From Acidobacteriota bacterium (GTDB lineage: Bacteria; Acidobacteriota; Vicinamibacteria; Vicinamibacterales; UBA2999): a stretch of DNA of 64,000 nucleotides. Location of the stretch: contig JAKFYH010000047.1 of NCBI GenBank assembly GCA_021730945.1, positions 1 to 64,000 of the forward strand, written 5' to 3'. The notes beneath the pieces are model-generated. The model had not been told where the DNA came from. It saw only the letters and a list, made by a program, of their open reading frames with translations, and did no database searches. Below are positions 50,651-64,000 of the stretch, one piece after another. The translations under genes were made by a program, and so were the position numbers. The stretch's first letter is position 1, and the number at the start of each line of letters is the position of its first letter.

Positions 50651-50735
50651 TTTCGCCACTGACCCTATCGTGTTGACTTGCTTACCTTTAGGTATATACC
50701 CCATTCTCTTACCCCATGCCTGGGCTGTTTTCTTG

Positions 50736-50822
50736 ACCTATTGACGTATACATGGAATCCATGTATACTTGTCTTCGTTCGGCAATCACGCCGGCCCTCT
50801 TTCAAGGGTTGTGAGCAGATGG
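50736..50822 (+). promoter_or_regulatory. Promoter-operator block, copy A (ArdC gene)
   Basis: TTGACG (50741-50746), 17 bases, TATACT (50764-50769). A palindrome of 10-bp arms, GTATACATGG / CCATGTATAC (50746-50755 and 50759-50768), covers the promoter core, so binding would block RNA polymerase. The 87-bp block is repeated upstream of higB with only a few changes, including the leader and the GTGAGCAGATGG start context. Confidence 0.9.
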
Positions 50823-51631
50823 CAGATTCAAAGACCGCCCCGTCGTTTTCCGAGTTGCTGGCCACCGTCGTCACCGAGCCAGGCAAGCTCGAGCAGGCCT
50901 TCTCCCGGTTCCATAACTACTCAATCGGCAACCAGCTGCTGGCCCTGATCGAATGCTTCCGCCGCGGCATCGAACCCGGCCCGATCGCCACCTACGCCGG
51001 CTGGCAGGCCCTCGGCCGCCAGGTCCGCAAGGGCGAGAAGGCGATCGAGCTCTGCATGCCGATCACCTGCAAGCGCACCGTGAAGGACGAGACGACTGGC
51101 GACGAGTCGCCCGCCACCTTCACGCGGTTCGCCTTCAAGCCGCGCTGGTTCGTGCTGGCGCAGACCGACGGCGTCGACTACGTGGCGCCGGCGCCGCCGA
51201 CCTGGGATAAGGCGCGCGCGTTGGCCGCGCTCGACATCACGGAGGAGGCCTTCGCCTCCATGAACGGCAATTCACAGGGCTACGCGGTCGGCCGGCGCGT
51301 CGCTATCTCGCCCGTGGCTGAACGCCCGTTCCCGACGCTCGTGCACGAGCTCGCGCACGTCATCCTCGGTCACACCACGAACGGTGCCCGCCTCGAGGAC
51401 GGCGCGGTCATCAGCTACGCGGCCGCCGAGGTCGAGGCTGAATCCGTGGCGCTGCTCGTCTCGGGCTCGCTGGGCCAAGACGGCCTCGAGTACTGCCGCG
51501 GCTATGTGCAGCACTACCTCCGCGGCGCGGCGATCGACGAGCGCACCGCGCAGCGCATCTTCAAGGCGGCCGACACGATCCTTCGTGCCGGCCGCGTCGA
51601 CCAGGTCGAAGAACTGCCGGTCGCGGCCTAA
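50819..51631 (+). CDS. ArdC-like antirestriction protein / metallopeptidase
   Basis: A 270-residue two-domain protein. Residues 5-110 look like the ArdC N-terminal ssDNA-binding domain (F-S-R-F-H-N-Y-S-I-G-N-Q-L-L-A-L, Y-A-G-W-Q-A-L-G-R-Q-V-R-K-G-E-K-A-I). Residues about 150-260 are a zinc metallopeptidase with V-H-E-L-A-H-V-I-L-G-H (HExxH near 174) and a downstream E-V-E-A-E-S-V-A. ArdC proteins on plasmids and phages counter restriction enzymes. The ATG at 50819 is set by the repeated promoter block. Confidence 0.88.
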   Translation: MADSKTAPSFSELLATVVTEPGKLEQAFSRFHNYSIGNQLLALIECFRRGIEPGPIATYAGWQALGRQVRKGEKAIELCMPITCKRTVKDETTGDESPATFTRFAFKPRWFVLAQTDGVDYVAPAPPTWDKARALAALDITEEAFASMNGNSQGYAVGRRVAISPVAERPFPTLVHELAHVILGHTTNGARLEDGAVISYAAAEVEAESVALLVSGSLGQDGLEYCRGYVQHYLRGAAIDERTAQRIFKAADTILRAGRVDQVEELPVAA

Positions 51632-52070: not shown

Positions 52071-52155
52071 ACCTATTGACGTATACATGGCATCCATGTA
52101 TACTTATTTTCGTTCGGCAATCACGCCGGCCCTTTCAAGGGTTGTGAGCAGATGG
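52071..52155 (+). promoter_or_regulatory. Promoter-operator block, copy B (higBA)
   Basis: Same layout as copy A: TTGACG (52076-52081), 17 bases, TATACT (52099-52104), palindrome arms 52081-52090 and 52094-52103 with a CAT spacer in place of AAT. Leader differs by two substitutions and one 2-base gap. HigA-type antitoxins bind such palindromes over their own promoters. Confidence 0.9.
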
Positions 52156-52457
52156 CGATTAAGAGCTTCAAGTCCCAGACCGCGCAAGACATTTTCCTCG
52201 GCGATAACACGAAGGCGGCCCGCAAGGTCGCGCAGAAAGCATGGACGGCGGCGAGCCGTCGCCTGCAGCTGCTGCACACGGCAGCGAAGTTGTCGGACCT
52301 GTCGATGATCCCGGGGCTGCGTTTCGAGCCGCTCAAACACGACCGGCCCGGGTTCTACAGCATCCGGGTCAACGACCAATACCGGATCACGTTCCGGTTC
52401 GAAGATGGCGAGGCATACGATGTCGAAGTCGAAGACCCGAGGTACCACCAGCCGTAA
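52152..52457 (+). CDS. higB: HigB-type ribosome-dependent mRNA interferase toxin
   Basis: A 101-residue RelE-superfamily toxin. It has an N-terminal helix pair (A-R-K-V-A-Q-K-A-W), then the core P-L-K-H-D-R-P-G-F-Y-S-I-R-V-N-D-Q-Y-R-I with the catalytic-type basic residues, and F-E-D-G-E-A-Y-D-V-E-V-E-D. Free HigB cuts mRNA on the ribosome. As in HigBA systems, the toxin gene comes first. It overlaps higA. Confidence 0.92.
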   Translation: MAIKSFKSQTAQDIFLGDNTKAARKVAQKAWTAASRRLQLLHTAAKLSDLSMIPGLRFEPLKHDRPGFYSIRVNDQYRITFRFEDGEAYDVEVEDPRYHQP

Positions 52458-52827
52458 GGCTGGTCCGTTTCCAATGCCTGAGGATTGGCTGGCGCGCCTG
52501 CGCCAGCCACCTCCGCATCCTGGTGTGGTGTTTCGCGAACAGTTCCGCGAGTTGCAGGAGCCACCGATTTCCACGAGGGCCACGGCGGCACGCATGGGTA
52601 TCTCAAACAATCGGCTGAATGAAATCGAGCTTGGCAAGCGCAGCGTGACCGCTGAGACGGCGTTGCTGTTCGAGGCTATGACCGGCTTCGGCGCCGAGAG
52701 CTGGTGCCGGATGCAGATGCACTACGACCTCTGGCACGCAATGCAGGCCGCGAAGAAGAACAGGCCACTGATTCCCGGCGACCCGTTCCCGACCACAGTT
52801 CCTTCGACGCACCGATCAGGAAATTAG
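52420..52827 (+). CDS. higA: HigA-type antitoxin, XRE-family repressor
   Basis: A 135-residue XRE protein. The HTH is I-S-T-R-A-T-A-A-R-M-G-I-S-N-N-R-L-N-E-I-E-L-G-K-R-S-V; H-P-G-V-V-F-R-E-Q-F precedes it, the typical HigA entry. The C-terminal W-C-R-M-Q-M-H-Y-D-L-W is also family-like. It should neutralise HigB and bind the palindromes at 52081-52103 and 50746-50768. The ATG at 52420 (38-base overlap with higB) or the ATG at 52474 could be the start. Confidence 0.9.
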   Translation: MSKSKTRGTTSRKAGPFPMPEDWLARLRQPPPHPGVVFREQFRELQEPPISTRATAARMGISNNRLNEIELGKRSVTAETALLFEAMTGFGAESWCRMQMHYDLWHAMQAAKKNRPLIPGDPFPTTVPSTHRSGN

Positions 52828-53035: not shown

Positions 53036-53234
53036 GTTTGCGCGCGCGGTCCTTGCGGGCGCCGGCATCGGCCAGCCGCGCCTTCATACCGGCGAGCTGC
53101 TCGGGCGTGATGCCGGCTTTCGGTAGCAGGTCGCCGATGACGTGCAGCACGACGCCGGCGATCGGCGACTTCACCAGCTTCTCGCCGGCAGCGAGCCACT
53201 TTTCGAGCTGTTCAACTTTGAGGGTGGGCGGCAT
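53019..53234 (-). CDS. Phage hypothetical protein
   Basis: A 71-residue, mostly helical protein: V-E-Q-L-E-K-W-L-A-A-G-E-K-L near the start and a basic tail (A-R-K-D-R-A-R-K-R). The segment I-A-G-V-V-L-H-V-I-G-D-L-L is hydrophobic but too short to be a sure membrane span. It overlaps the lipoprotein ORF by 23 bases. May belong to the lysis or end-of-tail set; function unknown. Confidence 0.55.
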   Translation of the reverse strand: MPPTLKVEQLEKWLAAGEKLVKSPIAGVVLHVIGDLLPKAGITPEQLAGMKARLADAGARKDRARKRGGQA

Positions 53235-53955
53235 CGGTCTTCTCCTTGGGCAACAGGGCCTTGATGGTGTTGTAGAGGCGCATCAGGTCGTCGAGCACGG
53301 CGGTGGCCTGCGGCCGCGCGCTGGTGACGGCGGCGCTCAGCTGCTCGAGCGCGTCCAGCATGGCCGGCACGCCGGCAATGGAGCCTTCCTGCGCGGCCTT
53401 GTTGTAGACCTCGTAGGCCGACCAGGCGGCCGCGATCGACCCGTTGAACGCCTTGCAATCGTCTTCCGACCGCAACCTGGCGTCGCAGGCCGCATTGATC
53501 GCATCGTCGGCGCCGGCGATGGTGGCGTGCATGGCCCGCTCGGTCTCGACGAGCACTTTGCCGGTAGACGCGCAACCGGCCGACAGGCCGACGGCCAGCA
53601 GGATCGGCAGCACGTAGAGGTCGCGACTGCCCCGCCGCATCGTGGCGTCCTGGGCGCGGCCCGACTGCTCGAGCGGTTTGACGCCGGCACGCCACCATTC
53701 AACGGCACCGGAGGCCGCGAGCGCCTGGATGATCGCTTGCATCAGCAGCTCACCTCGATCACCGCCAATCAGGTGGAACACGTCGCGCGACAACAGCGTG
53801 AGCACGATCGAGACCAGCACGACGTAGGCCGCGACGGGCAGCTTCTCGAGCAGCGGCACACTAGCCAGCCAGCCCTTGAGGCCGTGCACGATGGTGATGG
53901 TGAGGGCGACGATGCCCGCGATGGTGGTGAGGTCGATCGAGAAACTGGGGTCCAT
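53212..53955 (-). CDS. Holin-like membrane protein fused in frame to a lipoprotein
   Basis: A 247-residue ORF. Residues 8-62 have two membrane spans (I-A-G-I-V-A-L-T-I-T-I-V-H-G-L, A-A-Y-V-V-L-V-S-I-V-L-T-L-L) as in phage holins. From Met106 it reads as a separate lipoprotein: R-R-G signal start, I-L-L-A-V-G-L-S-A-G-C lipobox, then helices. AGGA lies just before the codon of Met106 (53640), so two products are possible: a full-length protein and a shorter lipoprotein that could act like an outer-membrane spanin. Confidence 0.72.
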   Translation of the reverse strand: MDPSFSIDLTTIAGIVALTITIVHGLKGWLASVPLLEKLPVAAYVVLVSIVLTLLSRDVFHLIGGDRGELLMQAIIQALAASGAVEWWRAGVKPLEQSGRAQDATMRRGSRDLYVLPILLAVGLSAGCASTGKVLVETERAMHATIAGADDAINAACDARLRSEDDCKAFNGSIAAAWSAYEVYNKAAQEGSIAGVPAMLDALEQLSAAVTSARPQATAVLDDLMRLYNTIKALLPKEKTDAAHPQS

Positions 53956-56096: not shown

Positions 56097-56543
56097 TTAC
56101 TCGCTATGATCTCCTGCCGCGTAGGCGGGCGGATTCTCAATGTCGATCCAGATCTCGCCAGTGGTCGCCGTTAGACGCTCCATCAGCCGCTGCAGCGCCA
56201 TCTGCGACCGTCCAATCGTCGCAGCGCCGCGGTCGAGGCCAACGAGGAGGCAGCCCTCCGTGTCGACCGATTTGTTGCCGGCGTGAATCAGGACCCACTC
56301 GAATCCAGGCACGTCCTGGAGCCACGGCAGCATCCGACCGAAGCGCGGCGACTGACGCAGCGCAACGCGGTAGCGGCCGGCGGGAATGGCCGTCTGGCCC
56401 TTCACCTTCCAGGTGCCCACGGGCTGGTCGAGCTGCTCGCGGACCTCGTCTTCGAGCGTGTCGCACAGCCGCACGCCGTCGATGTAGAGACTGCCTAGCG
56501 TGGCCCCGCCTCGCGAGGGTTCGCGGATGACGCGGAGATTCAT
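56097..56543 (-). CDS. DUF5675-family phage protein
   Basis: A 148-residue protein that matches the DUF5675 layout: L-C-D-T-L-E-D-E-V-R, T-A-I-P-A-G-R-Y-R-V, S-P-R-F-G-R-M-L-P-W-L, W-V-L-I-H-A-G-N and D-T-E-G-C-L-L-V-G. The H-A-G-N ... D-T-E-G-C pair is like the L,D-transpeptidase/peptidase core, so a cell-wall enzyme is possible. The ATG shares ATGA with the PAS gene stop. Confidence 0.88.
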   Translation of the reverse strand: MNLRVIREPSRGGATLGSLYIDGVRLCDTLEDEVREQLDQPVGTWKVKGQTAIPAGRYRVALRQSPRFGRMLPWLQDVPGFEWVLIHAGNKSVDTEGCLLVGLDRGAATIGRSQMALQRLMERLTATTGEIWIDIENPPAYAAGDHSE

Positions 56544-57145
56544 GCCGCCTCCGGTGTTTCGAATGTGCCCTGCCACTCGAGCACGCGGGCGCCGGCCTTC
56601 ACCGGCACGGCGTCGACGCAAACCGACAGCTCATCTCCGGAGGCCTTCACCAGCACGCATTCGCGTCGTAGCATGCGCCCGTCTCGGATCGTGTGATTCC
56701 AGGCCACCATGAAGGCCTCCACGTGATCTTGGTGAATCAGGTTCACCCACCCCATTCCCAGTAGGTCGCGCGCGGGGTAACCGGTCAGCATCTCGAAGGC
56801 CCGATTCACAGACACGAACCGCCCGGTTGCGTCGGCCTGGAACGCCGGCCGCGCCATGCTGTCGAAGATCGCCGCCTGCCTGGCCGCGATCACGGTGACC
56901 TGGTCCTTCATACTGCCGCCGCCGTTCGGTCCAAGCTCGGCCTCGACGCGGCGCTTGATCTGCGTGACTTCGCCCTCCATGCGGTCGACGGTCGCCACCA
57001 TCCGATGGACACCACGAAAGTGATCGACGATTGGCGCGGTGGCCCAGCGCCAGAGGCGCAGAAGCGCAGGACGCACCAACGCGTAGACGATCCCAGACGG
57101 TGCAACGATTGCGGCCAGCCAGGCCCACTCCTGGAGCGTCAACAT
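56540..57145 (-). CDS. Phage-encoded membrane PAS-domain protein
   Basis: A 201-residue protein. One membrane span at about residues 8-28 (W-A-W-L-A-A-I-V-A-P-S-G-I-V-Y-A-L-V) is followed by a coiled coil (V-D-R-M-E-G-E-V-T-Q-I-K-R-R-V at about 53-67) and a PAS domain (about 88-195: A-T-G-R-F-V-S-V-N-R-A-F-E-M-L-T-G-Y, with W-V-N-L-I-H-Q-D-H after it). It has no kinase or output domain. It lies between tail-fibre and cell-wall genes in a chain of ATGA overlaps, the place where phages keep lysis genes. A sensing role in lysis is an idea, not shown. Confidence 0.82.
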   Translation of the reverse strand: MLTLQEWAWLAAIVAPSGIVYALVRPALLRLWRWATAPIVDHFRGVHRMVATVDRMEGEVTQIKRRVEAELGPNGGGSMKDQVTVIAARQAAIFDSMARPAFQADATGRFVSVNRAFEMLTGYPARDLLGMGWVNLIHQDHVEAFMVAWNHTIRDGRMLRRECVLVKASGDELSVCVDAVPVKAGARVLEWQGTFETPEAA

Positions 57146-57149
57146 TGCC

Positions 57150-57548
57150 CTAGACCTCCGCCGTCAGCCTCTGCAACAACAGAGTCTTCGCCGTCGTCTT
57201 CACGTTCTGAACCGAACGCTCCTGCGCTGCCTCGTCCCACCGCCCAGCCTGAATCGCGCCGACGACGGTCGGAAGGTGCGTGAATGCGGCTCGAATGATG
57301 ACGTCTCCTGTGGCCAGCGCCTCCTCGAGCTTGGCGTTCAGCATCGCGGCCTGCGCAGCCGCGCGCTCATCAGCCGTCCGTGCACGCCGTTTCGTGGGGC
57401 TGCCAGCATCGAACATCTCGAGCTCGCGGTCGGGCATCCGCTCGTCCGGTAGGGTCACGACACCCTGGGTCAATGGATCAAACGTGGGCTCATAGAAGCC
57501 ACCGTAGAGGAACATGCCGTCAGCCAGGCGATAGACCCAGTTATTCAT
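57150..57548 (-). CDS. Phage tail-associated hypothetical protein
   Basis: A 132-residue protein: M-N-N-W-V-Y-R-L-A-D-G-M-F-L-Y-G-G near the start, then a charged middle (P-T-K-R-R-A-R-T-A-D-E-R), and helices. The start shares ATGA with the tail-fibre stop. Could be a fibre chaperone or assembly protein by position. No named family is seen. Confidence 0.65.
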   Translation of the reverse strand: MNNWVYRLADGMFLYGGFYEPTFDPLTQGVVTLPDERMPDRELEMFDAGSPTKRRARTADERAAAQAAMLNAKLEEALATGDVIIRAAFTHLPTVVGAIQAGRWDEAAQERSVQNVKTTAKTLLLQRLTAEV

Positions 57549-58996
57549 CGCAACCACTCAAACGCATCGAGGTAGAAGGTGGCCGTGCCGCTGGGATAGC
57601 AGCTCGGATATACGCCCTGCCAGTCCACGAGGCACGACGCCACGAAGTTCTCGTTCGCGACGCGGGCGGTGAAGCCGCCGACACCAGCCAGGCGCGCCGA
57701 GGGATTCAAGTAGGACCCTTCCGGCGCGCCCGCAATCATGGCCTGCGACCCCAACGTGTCGCAGTTGATGAAGGTCGACAGCAGGCACGGAACAGGTGGC
57801 ACAAATGCCGCGACGTGATTGACCGACTGGTACGCCGACGCGATTGCCCCGACGGTCACACTCTCGATGGGCTGATTCCAACGCTCGTGCTGCACGAACT
57901 TTCGCAACACGTTGGAGCCGGTGTTATAGACGTAGCCAACCTTACAGGACTGCGTCCAGCCCGACGGGAGCGTCAACGCTGCGCTATTTCTTGTGACGTA
58001 GGTCTTGAACGCGAAATCATGGGTGGCGGTGAGCGTCCAGGTGGTCGGGTTGTACGTGGCGTACGAGCCGCCGGCGTAGCTACTGGCCCCACCCTTCGCG
58101 GACCAGACGAAGTTGTTCGAGGCGTGGACCGTGTAGTCGCCCTGCATGACGATCCAGTACTGCGTGCCCGCGGTCAGCGACACGGGCGTCCGGAACGGGA
58201 ATCGAATATTGCCGAGCCCAGAGCTCATGTCGGTCACGACGAGCTTGTCTGACGTTGCCAGGGGTGTGCCACTGGGGACTCCAGCCGCGTCAGCCTCGAT
58301 GGTCAGCCAGATATTGCCGGACGGCGTGCCGGTGCGATAACCGAGGATGTCGATCATCTCGCACAGGCCGGTGGTGCCGGGCTGAAAGCCCTGCGCGAGC
58401 TTGGTGGTCGCCGTGCTCGAGCGCAGCTGCGCATAGGTATCCTGGGTCGTCTGCGACTGGTCGAGCGTCCAGTCTTTCTCACGATGCAGCAGCAACCGCA
58501 GGTCACTGGCGAGCTGCGTCGAGGCCTTGCCGATCAGGTAGATGCTATACCACGTGCTCGCGGTGCGGCTCCCCGTATCGAGGCCGGCTGCGCCACTCGC
58601 GGTGATGTCAGCCTCGAGTGGAAACGTCAAGCCGCTATAGCGCACGCCGTCATCCATGACGACTTCTTCCAAACCGACGAGGGCCACTTTGTTGGCCGCC
58701 GCGTCTCCGTCTTGGTGGGTGCGCAAGTGGAGGCCGCGAAAGGACTGCGGCCCGGCGACCGACACCATTTCCCACCCGCTGCCATCGGCCTTAAAGTGCG
58801 GCACCTTTCCTGCCACGGCCGCCACGCGCGTCAACTGACTGGCGCTCGCGGCCGGTATGAAGTCGTGAGCCGTCTGGCTTGGGATCGCAATGCCACCGTC
58901 CCGCACGACGAGGATGTTGTCGAACGCGCGGTCGAAGTGATCTTTCTTGGTCGACAACCCCACGCTCACGGGATTGGTCGCATTAAAGGTCGGCAT
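57545..58996 (-). CDS. Phage tail-fibre / receptor-binding protein
   Basis: A 483-residue, low-Lys protein of beta structure. Residues about 200-310 resemble a lectin-like anchor module (M-I-D-I-L-G-Y-R-T-G-T-P-S-G-N-I-W-L-T-I, V-P-S-G-T-P-L-A-T-S, L-T-A-G-T-Q-Y-W-I-V-M) common in secreted and phage surface proteins. The start P-T-F-N-A-T-N-P-V and end T-A-T-F-Y-L-D-A-F-E-W are fibre-like. Likely determines host binding. It overlaps the small zinc protein gene before it by 14 bases. Confidence 0.75.
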   Translation of the reverse strand: MPTFNATNPVSVGLSTKKDHFDRAFDNILVVRDGGIAIPSQTAHDFIPAASASQLTRVAAVAGKVPHFKADGSGWEMVSVAGPQSFRGLHLRTHQDGDAAANKVALVGLEEVVMDDGVRYSGLTFPLEADITASGAAGLDTGSRTASTWYSIYLIGKASTQLASDLRLLLHREKDWTLDQSQTTQDTYAQLRSSTATTKLAQGFQPGTTGLCEMIDILGYRTGTPSGNIWLTIEADAAGVPSGTPLATSDKLVVTDMSSGLGNIRFPFRTPVSLTAGTQYWIVMQGDYTVHASNNFVWSAKGGASSYAGGSYATYNPTTWTLTATHDFAFKTYVTRNSAALTLPSGWTQSCKVGYVYNTGSNVLRKFVQHERWNQPIESVTVGAIASAYQSVNHVAAFVPPVPCLLSTFINCDTLGSQAMIAGAPEGSYLNPSARLAGVGGFTARVANENFVASCLVDWQGVYPSCYPSGTATFYLDAFEWLR

Positions 58997-61967: not shown

Positions 61968-64000
61968 CTACCGCCCCCTCTGGCTGATGTTGCGCGACGG
62001 GACGGTGATGCCGCCGGCGTTGACGCGGTCCTGGATCTGCCGGAACTCGCTTTCGGTGACTTGGCGCGCGCCGGTGAAGTCGTTGACGACGTAGACGTTC
62101 GGGGCAGGCACGACCGCTGTCGCCACACTGGCGGCCATGGCGGCGCCACCGAGCCAACGCTTCGCGGTCTCGATGCGGTCTTCATAGGGCACGATCGCCT
62201 CGCGGCCGTGTGCGACGATGTCGGTGCCTCGGCCGAAGTCGGGAAAGTCGTAGCCGTGCTTACGATAGGTGCCGCCCGAGTAGCCGTTCTCGTCCCGGCC
62301 ATCGCCGTTCATGTCGTAGGAACGGTTTGACTGCGCCGGGAAGGACCCGCCCATGGTCCCGTTGACGACGCCATCTGGCAAGGGGTCGACAGTGACCCCG
62401 ATGTGGATCGTCCGGTCGACGGTGGCAGCGTCCAGGGCCGACTCCAATCCGCTGGCGGCGTCTGACACGCCGTCGATGACGGCCTTGATCGCGGCGATCG
62501 CGGCTGCAGATTCGCCGGCCCCTTTCTTACTGGACTGCCACAGCCGTTCAGCGGCCGCTAGTGCCTCGGCTTCCGTCCGTCCAGCCGCGATGTACGCATC
62601 GCGGATAGCGATGACCGTCATCTTCCAGGATTCGTTCCCGGCCTCGTTGCGTTGGGTCTGGTTCAGCAGCGAATGGAGCTGCGCCTCGAAGTCCGCCACG
62701 GCTTGCCGTCCACGCAGCTCTTCCGCCGACGGCCCGCCGAAAATCGACCGGAAGAACCCACCGATGCGCTCGGCGATGGGGCCGAACAGCGCCCCCAGCG
62801 TCGGCAGCAAGGCGTTCACGGCCTCGCCAATTCCGAAGGGCAAGGCGTCCTTGATTGCCGGCCCGAACTTCTCCTGGAACTTGCTCATCAGCGACGTGCC
62901 GATATGGGCACCGGCGGCTGCGATCACCGATCCGCCGCCCTGGATGGCGCTCATGATGACGTTGGGCAGGCCGGCCATCAGCTGGCCGAAGCGGCTGACG
63001 CTCTGCGTGCCGGTCTCGTCGAGCTGCTGCCCTAGCGCCTTGATGGACGGCGCGAGGGTGGCGTTGTTCTCAAAGGCCCACTTCTCCGCGGCCGCGGTCA
63101 TTTCGGCGGTCTGCTGGATGGTGCGCGTCATGATTGGCTGGCCTTCGACCAGTGACGCGCGCTGAACCTTGAACCAGTCTGGCGTCGCGGCTACCTGGCC
63201 AAGCGTCTGCTTCAGGTCCTCGTAGTGCTGGATCTGCTTGGCCAGCGACTTCGTCAACCGGTCGATCGTAGGATCCAGCTCCTCGTTGGCGGCCTTGACC
63301 TTCTTCGACGCTTTCTCGTTCTCGCCGTAGTTCAGGTTGAGGGTGGAGATCGTGCGCGCCTGCGTCTCCTGCTTCGCCGATGTGGTGATGGACTGTGCGG
63401 TGAAGATCGCCAAGCCGTCCTTCGCCTGGGCGACGTTGGCCTTGAGGCCGGCGATGGTCTCGCCCGAGAAGCCGATCGCCTTGCCGAGTAGCGGGATGCT
63501 GTTGACACCTTCGGCGATGCTCAGCAGGAACTCGTTGAACCAGATCTTCATGTCCATGAACGCGCGGCCCAGGCCGAGCGACAGGGCATCCGTGACGAAC
63601 CTGACCGCGCCTGGCAGGGTCTCGCCCATCCATTTCGCGACCGTGGTCAGGACCGGGATCATGGGCTCGAGGACCTGGGCGATCACGGACTTGCCGACCG
63701 CGGCCAGTGTGCCCATGGTGTCGCCGAACTCGTCGCCGGCGCGCACGGCATCCTCGCTCAGCACGATGCCGAGGCGATCCGCGGCCGAGGCGGTCTCGGA
63801 CAGGTTCCCCTTCATCATCGGCAGCAGGTCCGCGCCGGACTTGCCGAACAGATCCATGGCCAGTTTCGACTGGGCCATCGGGTCGGGGATCTTCGCGATG
63901 GAATCGGCGATGGTCGTGAAGGCCTTGTCCGGAGCCATGCCCCGGATCTGGTCGAACGACAGCCCGAGGGCGTCGAGCGCGCCGACGGCGGACTTGTTGC
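61968..64000 (-). CDS. Phage tail tape measure protein, 5' end beyond the window
   Basis: The open frame runs off the right edge with no stop, so at least 677 residues are present and the start is missing. It has helices with low-complexity Ala/Lys stretches, K-L-A-M-D-L-F-G-K-S-G-A-D-L-L-P-M-M-K near the N-terminal part (a typical TP901-like tape measure segment), a membrane-like region, and a C-terminal D-M-N-G-D-G-R-D-E-N-G-Y segment. It sets tail length and enters the cell at infection. Confidence 0.88.
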   Translation of the reverse strand, partial: NKSAVGALDALGLSFDQIRGMAPDKAFTTIADSIAKIPDPMAQSKLAMDLFGKSGADLLPMMKGNLSETASAADRLGIVLSEDAVRAGDEFGDTMGTLAAVGKSVIAQVLEPMIPVLTTVAKWMGETLPGAVRFVTDALSLGLGRAFMDMKIWFNEFLLSIAEGVNSIPLLGKAIGFSGETIAGLKANVAQAKDGLAIFTAQSITTSAKQETQARTISTLNLNYGENEKASKKVKAANEELDPTIDRLTKSLAKQIQHYEDLKQTLGQVAATPDWFKVQRASLVEGQPIMTRTIQQTAEMTAAAEKWAFENNATLAPSIKALGQQLDETGTQSVSRFGQLMAGLPNVIMSAIQGGGSVIAAAGAHIGTSLMSKFQEKFGPAIKDALPFGIGEAVNALLPTLGALFGPIAERIGGFFRSIFGGPSAEELRGRQAVADFEAQLHSLLNQTQRNEAGNESWKMTVIAIRDAYIAAGRTEAEALAAAERLWQSSKKGAGESAAAIAAIKAVIDGVSDAASGLESALDAATVDRTIHIGVTVDPLPDGVVNGTMGGSFPAQSNRSYDMNGDGRDENGYSGGTYRKHGYDFPDFGRGTDIVAHGREAIVPYEDRIETAKRWLGGAAMAASVATAVVPAPNVYVVNDFTGARQVTESEFRQIQDRVNAGGITVPSRNISQRGR

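Follow-up and report, generated by a model that had tools for sequence, protein, structure and literature searches.

Why does a prophage carry a gene for a membrane-anchored PAS protein among its late genes? The window, meaning the whole stretch of DNA analyzed (64,000 nucleotides from an Acidobacteriota bacterium, GCA_021730945.1, contig JAKFYH010000047.1, positions 1 to 64,000), apparently contains one end of a prophage; the contig measures 101 kb. The strand of the PAS gene also bears genes for the terminase large subunit, the portal, a head protease, the neck and the tail, among them the tape measure. A preliminary description had placed this gene between a cell-wall-type gene and a fibre gene. 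It suggested that the product gates lysis by redox, light or a ligand, or is part of the virion, and proposed structure prediction and a search for homologues in the same place as checks. The reading to which we lean, with confidence just short of even, is that the PAS protein is a membrane component of the lysis module, acting as holin, antiholin or regulator, and that its PAS domain is a sensor on the cytoplasmic side. The genes concerned are:

61968..63938, minus strand: tape-measure gene (PHROG-type match), which marks the tail-to-lysis order
57545..58996, minus strand: fibre-like gene, 483 aa, so named in the preliminary description; its PHROG matches are to families of unknown function only
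57150..57557, minus strand: 135-aa gene between the fibre-like and PAS genes, with no convincing family
56540..57145, minus strand: gene for the membrane-anchored PAS protein, 201 aa, ATG start (Pfam, AlphaFold)
56097..56543, minus strand: DUF5675 gene, predicted L,D-transpeptidase (YkuD)-like fold (Pfam, AlphaFold, motif)
53212..53955, minus strand: another holin-like candidate, 247 aa, with two N-terminal hydrophobic segments and a third at residues 113-131

Because the 135-aa gene (57557..57150) intervenes on the fibre side, only the cell-wall gene of the two neighbours first named directly adjoins the PAS gene. The stop codon of the PAS gene and the start codon of the DUF5675 gene overlap as ATGA (TCAT at 56540-56543 on the plus strand), as described earlier. 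Within and just upstream of the PAS gene the following parts were assigned:

57155..57159, minus strand: GGAGG, likely ribosome-binding site, 9 nt 5' of the ATG (sequence)
57062..57118, minus strand: predicted membrane span, residues 10-28 (hydropathy 1.67; K/R after the span)
56933..57061, minus strand: remainder of the long helix (coil), residues 29-71 (AlphaFold model)
56903..56938, minus strand: E-x3-NGGGSMKD motif, residues 70-81, common to PAS-less phage lysis-module proteins
56558..56857, minus strand: PAS domain, residues 97-196, without an output helix behind it (Pfam, AlphaFold, alignment, structural matches)

Pfam matches to the protein at E values up to 1 came from six models, all of them PAS. 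PAS_3 (3.4e-10; 40.5 bits, cut-off 25.6) and PAS (4.7e-10; 39.9 bits, cut-off 22.6) exceeded their cut-offs, as did PAS_4 and PAS_8. Structure prediction with AlphaFold from a 38-row alignment of the family yielded a PAS fold with pLDDT 91.8, and about 95–98 in the PAS core. The model consists of a single long helix (residues 4-71), a second helix (79-96) and the strands and helices of the PAS domain (101-196). Its best VIA-align match was 9vf7 (Z 16.1, 2.3 A, 116 residues), and its Foldseek and VIA-align neighbours included LOV proteins, NifL, MmoS, FixL and the PAS domains of EAG/hERG. The Pfam scan of the 201 aa detected no output domain such as a kinase or cyclase, so the protein does not classify as a PAS histidine kinase. 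The D-[ILV]-[ST] motif with its output helix was absent from the last 40 residues of the 38 aligned rows; the lone match to the pattern is in L090, where more PAS domain comes after it. The architecture first described, one membrane span, a coil and a PAS domain with no output domain, is borne out by hydropathy, AlphaFold and Pfam, the span being weak.

The likeness to LOV short proteins and to the FAD-PAS domains of NifL and MmoS lies in the PAS fold (Z 15–16, about 100-120 residues), and FixL is among the Foldseek matches. Unlike these sensors, the window protein has no kinase or output domain, ends with its PAS domain and lacks the LOV cysteine. The position that we equate by motif with the flavin-reactive cysteine of LOV domains is Trp133 in the window. 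Because Trp occupies this position in 37/38 rows, light sensing by LOV chemistry, one of the inputs first suggested, appears very unlikely. The fold matches to EAG/ELK/hERG potassium channels offer an analogy only, that of a membrane-conducting protein to which a PAS domain is coupled. Those are eukaryotic channels with an N-terminal PAS domain, unlike the window protein.

The DUF5675 gene product belongs to a Pfam family of unknown function. The AlphaFold model of the window member (pLDDT 81) matched structures of the L,D-transpeptidase fold, 23 of which were listed, the best being Pgp2 (Z 9.2, 3.9 A, 118 residues), with DpaA, Csd6 and LdtMt2 among the others. We take all 23 to have this fold; the title of one does not say so. 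A search for a solved structure homologous to DUF5675 by sequence found none. Relatives were collected from 51 IMG/VR loci, and H-x-GN-x4-T-x-GC is invariant in the 24 sequences that were aligned. The YkuD motif has a longer spacing. Because the structural matches agree and the His/Cys motif fits, though Z values of 8–9 are middling, DUF5675 is likely a cell-wall (endolysin-type) enzyme family of phages. The predicted YkuD fold supports the cell-wall-type label that the preliminary description had given the neighbour, and suggests a cell-wall role for the Pfam family. A small membrane ORF lies within 700 bases of 9/13 picked DUF5675 loci, a count made with no control set; the 13 are those left from the 51 after pattern and repeat removal (L173 is a wrong ORF, and several are near-identical). 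The literature on DUF5675 includes PMC10671443.

Homologues were sought in bacterial genomes. The homologue at L014 is 75-76% identical to the window PAS protein, with identities of 87/101 in the PAS domain, 41/51 in the coil and 20/45 in the membrane part. Comparison of the PAS parts of these two genes gave dN 0.074 and dS 0.97 (dN/dS about 0.08). The PAS gene is real and under purifying selection. The preliminary description had also named a host gene put in by assembly error as an alternative, and PAS domains are indeed common in bacterial genomes, with at least one further match in the genome of the window besides the prophage gene. Because homologues stand in similar places in other genomes, this explanation is refuted; the overlapping start and the purifying selection also speak against it, and we give it virtually no credence.

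Three overlapping genome sets were searched, with 99 relatives, 162 members of the order and 396 members of the phylum, at cut-offs of 1e-3, 1e-10 and 1e-12; at most 20 (order set) or 8 (phylum set) candidates were scored per genome. Many long multi-domain proteins matching by PAS alone were returned. With these cut-offs and limits per genome, compact members may have been missed. Seven compact PAS genes were studied: that of the window, L014 and L016 (both in genome G005), L015 (G013), L152 (G108), L150 (G467) and L151 (G495). L017 (G014) was left out; within a frame of 269 residues only 48 were matched, at E 3.2e-4. Four PAS proteins from a scan of the genome contigs were also dropped: a pair of 761 and 1065 aa, and a pair of 153 aa that lack the N-terminal module.

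All seven compact PAS genes lie at most two genes from a gene of endolysin type, of which four kinds are clear and two fall below cut-off. Other prophages thus have homologues in comparable positions, as sought by the preliminary description. The gene next to the PAS gene encodes a Phage_lysozyme (PF00959) in L014 and L016 and a GH108 protein in L015. In L152, on a contig of 4.2 kb, a 101-aa hydrophobic protein (hydropathy 2.32) is followed by Amidase_2. L150 has a receiver-like gene and then an SLT/lysozyme-like gene, both below cut-off, and L151 a 225-aa protein without an assigned family and then an M15-like gene below cut-off. L150, L151 and L152 were counted by their endolysin-type neighbour, not by other phage genes. 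The endolysin-type gene is swapped and the PAS protein stays, a pattern that may be likened to that of holins and their partners.

The N-terminal module of the PAS protein is also found in phage proteins that have no PAS domain, among them members of actinophage lysis modules. The window protein matches phrog_9869 at E 8.1e-6 over residues 36-95. At 0.01, phrog_9869 matches 28/38 rows of the family alignment and phrog_15431, which is named holin, matches 2. PAS-less proteins with a hydrophobic segment, a coil and an E[LV]xPNxGxSxxD-type motif were identified in five phages: Streptomyces phage mu1/6 gp52, Thermobifida phage P1312_040, Arthrobacter phages Sonali gp22 and Wheelbite gp68, and BIM BV-113 00590. 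In mu1/6, gp50 (endolysin) and gp51 (holin) precede gp52; P1312_040 overlaps the gene of an amidase, and Sonali gp22 that of lysin A. Wheelbite gp68 is called a holin by annotation only; it was first matched only weakly, at E 0.9, and it matches phrog_9869 at 5e-19. No named lysis gene was found near BV-113 00590. Two unannotated ct2KA10 records and a protein of Microbacterium phage LilyLou (E 0.8) were dropped from this set, as were two Vibrio phage matches, in one of which the span is C-terminal and the motif absent. P1312_040 (L116:2683-3126) carries the annotation 'sensory protein kinase CreC' but, at 147 aa, belongs with the phrog_9869/15431-type membrane/coil proteins.

Comparison of profiles linked the PAS family to the PAS-less proteins with 98.6% probability across 43 columns. 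From the five PAS-less proteins an HMM was built, which found 36/38 PAS rows at 1e-3, compared with 1/760 shuffles. When the motif was masked, the same HMM found 1/38 PAS rows at 1e-3. Because masking nearly abolishes the matches, the link to the PAS-less proteins is one of short motif and architecture and not of long homology. NGGxSxKD served as a search pattern, which partly accounts for its invariance; the form in L151 has diverged. The phrog_9869/phrog_15431 proteins thus resemble the window protein in their N-terminal hydrophobic segment, coil and motif and differ in size (91-158 aa) and in lacking PAS, with a likeness that is mainly the motif and a holin name that is an annotation.

These relatives bear on an explanation in which the PAS domain senses nothing. 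A lysis-module membrane protein might dimerize or oligomerize through PAS, with no ligand or signal. PAS domains commonly pair, PAS-less relatives occur in lysis modules, and neither Cys nor His is conserved in any column across the family (the best His column has 16/38 and the best Cys column 18/38). Against this, conservation between the window and L014 is highest in PAS, though an interface alone could account for that, and many of the top structural matches are cofactor-binding sensors, which reflects the fold only. We place pairing alone on the unlikely side.

PAS genes were also sought in phage sequences. With five PAS members (window, L015, L061, L046, L041) as queries, tblastn against 50,697 phage records found nothing at E ≤0.01; a single Gordonia phage, in two records, appeared at E 0.1 and was dropped. 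A single-sequence scan of IMG/VR with the PAS protein likewise found nothing. A scan with a 4-row alignment gave 91 loci, 80 of which were kept, forming 36 clusters at 70% identity. Thirty-four clusters were counted, excluding L098 and the L095/L099 cluster, which have no PAS; the later-found L256, L263 and L264 were not added. All 34 align over PAS. The best single Pfam PAS model matches 25/38 rows at 0.01, and in the other rows the assignment of PAS may rest on the alignment alone. The earlier claim that PAS is rare in phage lysis or structural blocks thus stands for the named phages and fails for uncultured phages. Proteins named 'PAS domain' have already been deposited for uncultured phages; two from uncultured Caudovirales phages, A0A6J5NY05 (205 aa) and A0A6J5QVN9 (195 aa), are the best viral structural matches and are known by name only. 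A literature search for PAS and phage, conducted largely outside subscription journals, found no paper on the PAS protein. PMC12542753 concerns a host kinase and is not relevant.

A small membrane ORF (40-135 aa) lies directly downstream of the PAS gene in 18/34 clusters, compared with 24/251 control genes, the control being other genes of ≥150 aa in the same IMG/VR loci (Fisher 1e-8, an overstated value because 13 of the 18 ORFs resemble each other and are not independent). These 13 look alike by eye, as if from one lineage. In many IMG/VR loci the PAS gene is followed by a hydrophobic protein of about 70 aa (e.g. L033:6485-6751) with the pattern FxLNxxD...KNAxLVGxAAxLTY...DLG...VPIVA...KWxKDN, a family that matched no named one convincingly. 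The small ORFs showed no homology to mu1/6 gp51 and only weak matches to holin PHROGs (E 0.08 and 0.1, in 1/13 each), and they appear holin-like by architecture only.

Most other neighbours in IMG/VR, among them the structural, portal and ribonucleotide reductase genes, were named by reading sequences. The family scan covered 50/107 downstream ORFs, hand-chosen and mostly on the same strand, and 0/100 upstream ORFs; it gives family counts, and assignment to loci was by reading. A GH108 gene, so assigned, lies next to the PAS gene in L067. Adjoining long genes on the opposite strand were read as structural in L020, L024, L041, L037, L056, L066 and L027. The PAS gene of L062 adjoins portal and prohead protease genes, and ribonucleotide reductase lies near the PAS gene in L034, L068, L070 and L082.

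The structural-looking neighbours of some phages, and the position of the PAS gene after fibre-like genes, are what a virion part or an injected inner-membrane tail component would predict. The membrane span, the PAS domain and the endolysin-type neighbours argue otherwise, and the sole structural-family match at 0.01 among 38 relatives is a weak one of a single member to a minor-tail PHROG. The suggestion of a virion part therefore retains something from these phage groups and gains nothing from the prophage cases; we regard it as very improbable.

Several IMG/VR groups have no recognized lysis neighbour, a point against the lysis reading that would suit a membrane-anchored phage modulator of host signalling, acting for example by pairing with a host PAS and having no part in lysis. 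The receiver-like gene that adjoins the PAS gene in L150 (L150:6794-7159) would suit it as well. That gene matches Response_reg at 1.6e-4, below cut-off, and its product has LVLDAGMP at the expected place, which we equate by motif with the phospho-acceptor site; it is a hint at signalling from one case. Against host-signalling modulation stand an endolysin-type gene at most two genes away in 7/7 compact cases and a motif common to lysis-module proteins, and we consider it quite improbable.

The hydropathy of the predicted span is modest in the window, at 1.67, and is 1.71 in L015, 1.40 in L016 and 1.33 in L014. ORFs near the endolysin gene were listed for L014, L016 and L015 (minus strand, ≥40 aa, 19-residue hydropathy ≥1.3). 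In each, the PAS protein was the only listed ORF whose N-terminal segment looked by eye neither lipoprotein- nor signal-like. This argument says little for L014 and L016, because soluble-looking neighbours in these loci reach higher values, having inner segments of 1.4-1.7; both PAS proteins also fall under the cut of 1.5 used in an earlier scan for membrane ORFs. K and R residues are more numerous after the span than before it in 34/35 rows and equal in one, three further rows having no span ≥1.3. The excess predicts an outside N-terminus, so that PAS is predicted to face the cytoplasm.

Holins are usually small, about 60-150 aa. The PAS gene adjoins a predicted cell-wall gene, as expected of a holin, and its 201-aa product exceeds holin size. 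The 247-aa ORF at 53955-53212 argues against the PAS protein as sole holin candidate. According to PMC11413866, lysis timing by T4 holin T and antiholin RI is set by a soluble C-terminal domain on a single membrane helix. The window protein is predicted to share one membrane helix and a soluble C-terminal domain with T4 T. It differs in that the N-terminus of T is cytoplasmic and its domain periplasmic, whereas the window domain has a PAS fold and is predicted to be cytoplasmic. The K/R pattern is thus opposite to the N-in/C-out topology of class III (T4 T-type) holins, by prediction.

We infer a lysis function for the PAS protein from genome context, and the protein may reasonably be supposed to gate lysis. 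In such a mechanism the N-terminal helix would lie in the inner membrane with the N-terminus out, leading through a cytoplasmic coil and the conserved NGGxSxKD hinge to the terminal PAS domain. A change in PAS, whether by ligand, cofactor, redox or PAS-PAS pairing, would pass back along the coil to the membrane helix or to a bound partner. Because nothing lies behind PAS, its signal could act only backwards or on a partner. The state of PAS would set the moment of the membrane lesion, with the PAS protein being either the holin itself or an antiholin or regulator of a separate two-span holin. The lesion would then release the cell-wall enzyme encoded by the overlapping DUF5675 gene.

The novel aspect of the lysis-module reading is a PAS sensor added to a membrane protein of the lysis module. 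Its broadest form, which we hold to be possible but doubtful, is that many phage lineages carry a one-component sensory lysis regulator, a holin or antiholin whose cytoplasmic PAS domain would read host redox, a metabolite or a cofactor and time lysis through the coil. Holin lysis timing is usually described as an allele-set clock. In T4, superinfection is a known input to lysis timing through a periplasmic domain (PMC11413866). If the sensory reading is true, phages may sense the condition of their host as they lyse it. A phage protein that is widespread, stands beside an endolysin and has an intracellular sensor fold provides testable genes for host-state-timed lysis.

Three other loci in the window were also recorded. 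The 247-aa ORF (53212-53955) has two predicted spans followed by a lipoprotein-like stretch (AGCAST), and its product may combine a holin with a spanin-like part. Two small plus-strand genes at 52152-52827 resemble a toxin-antitoxin pair, presumably HigB/HigA, and a similar pair occupies a similar place at L014:5865-6609. A 317-aa plus-strand gene at 50678-51631 has a HELAH zinc-protease-like motif, with a look-alike at L014:4783-5592.
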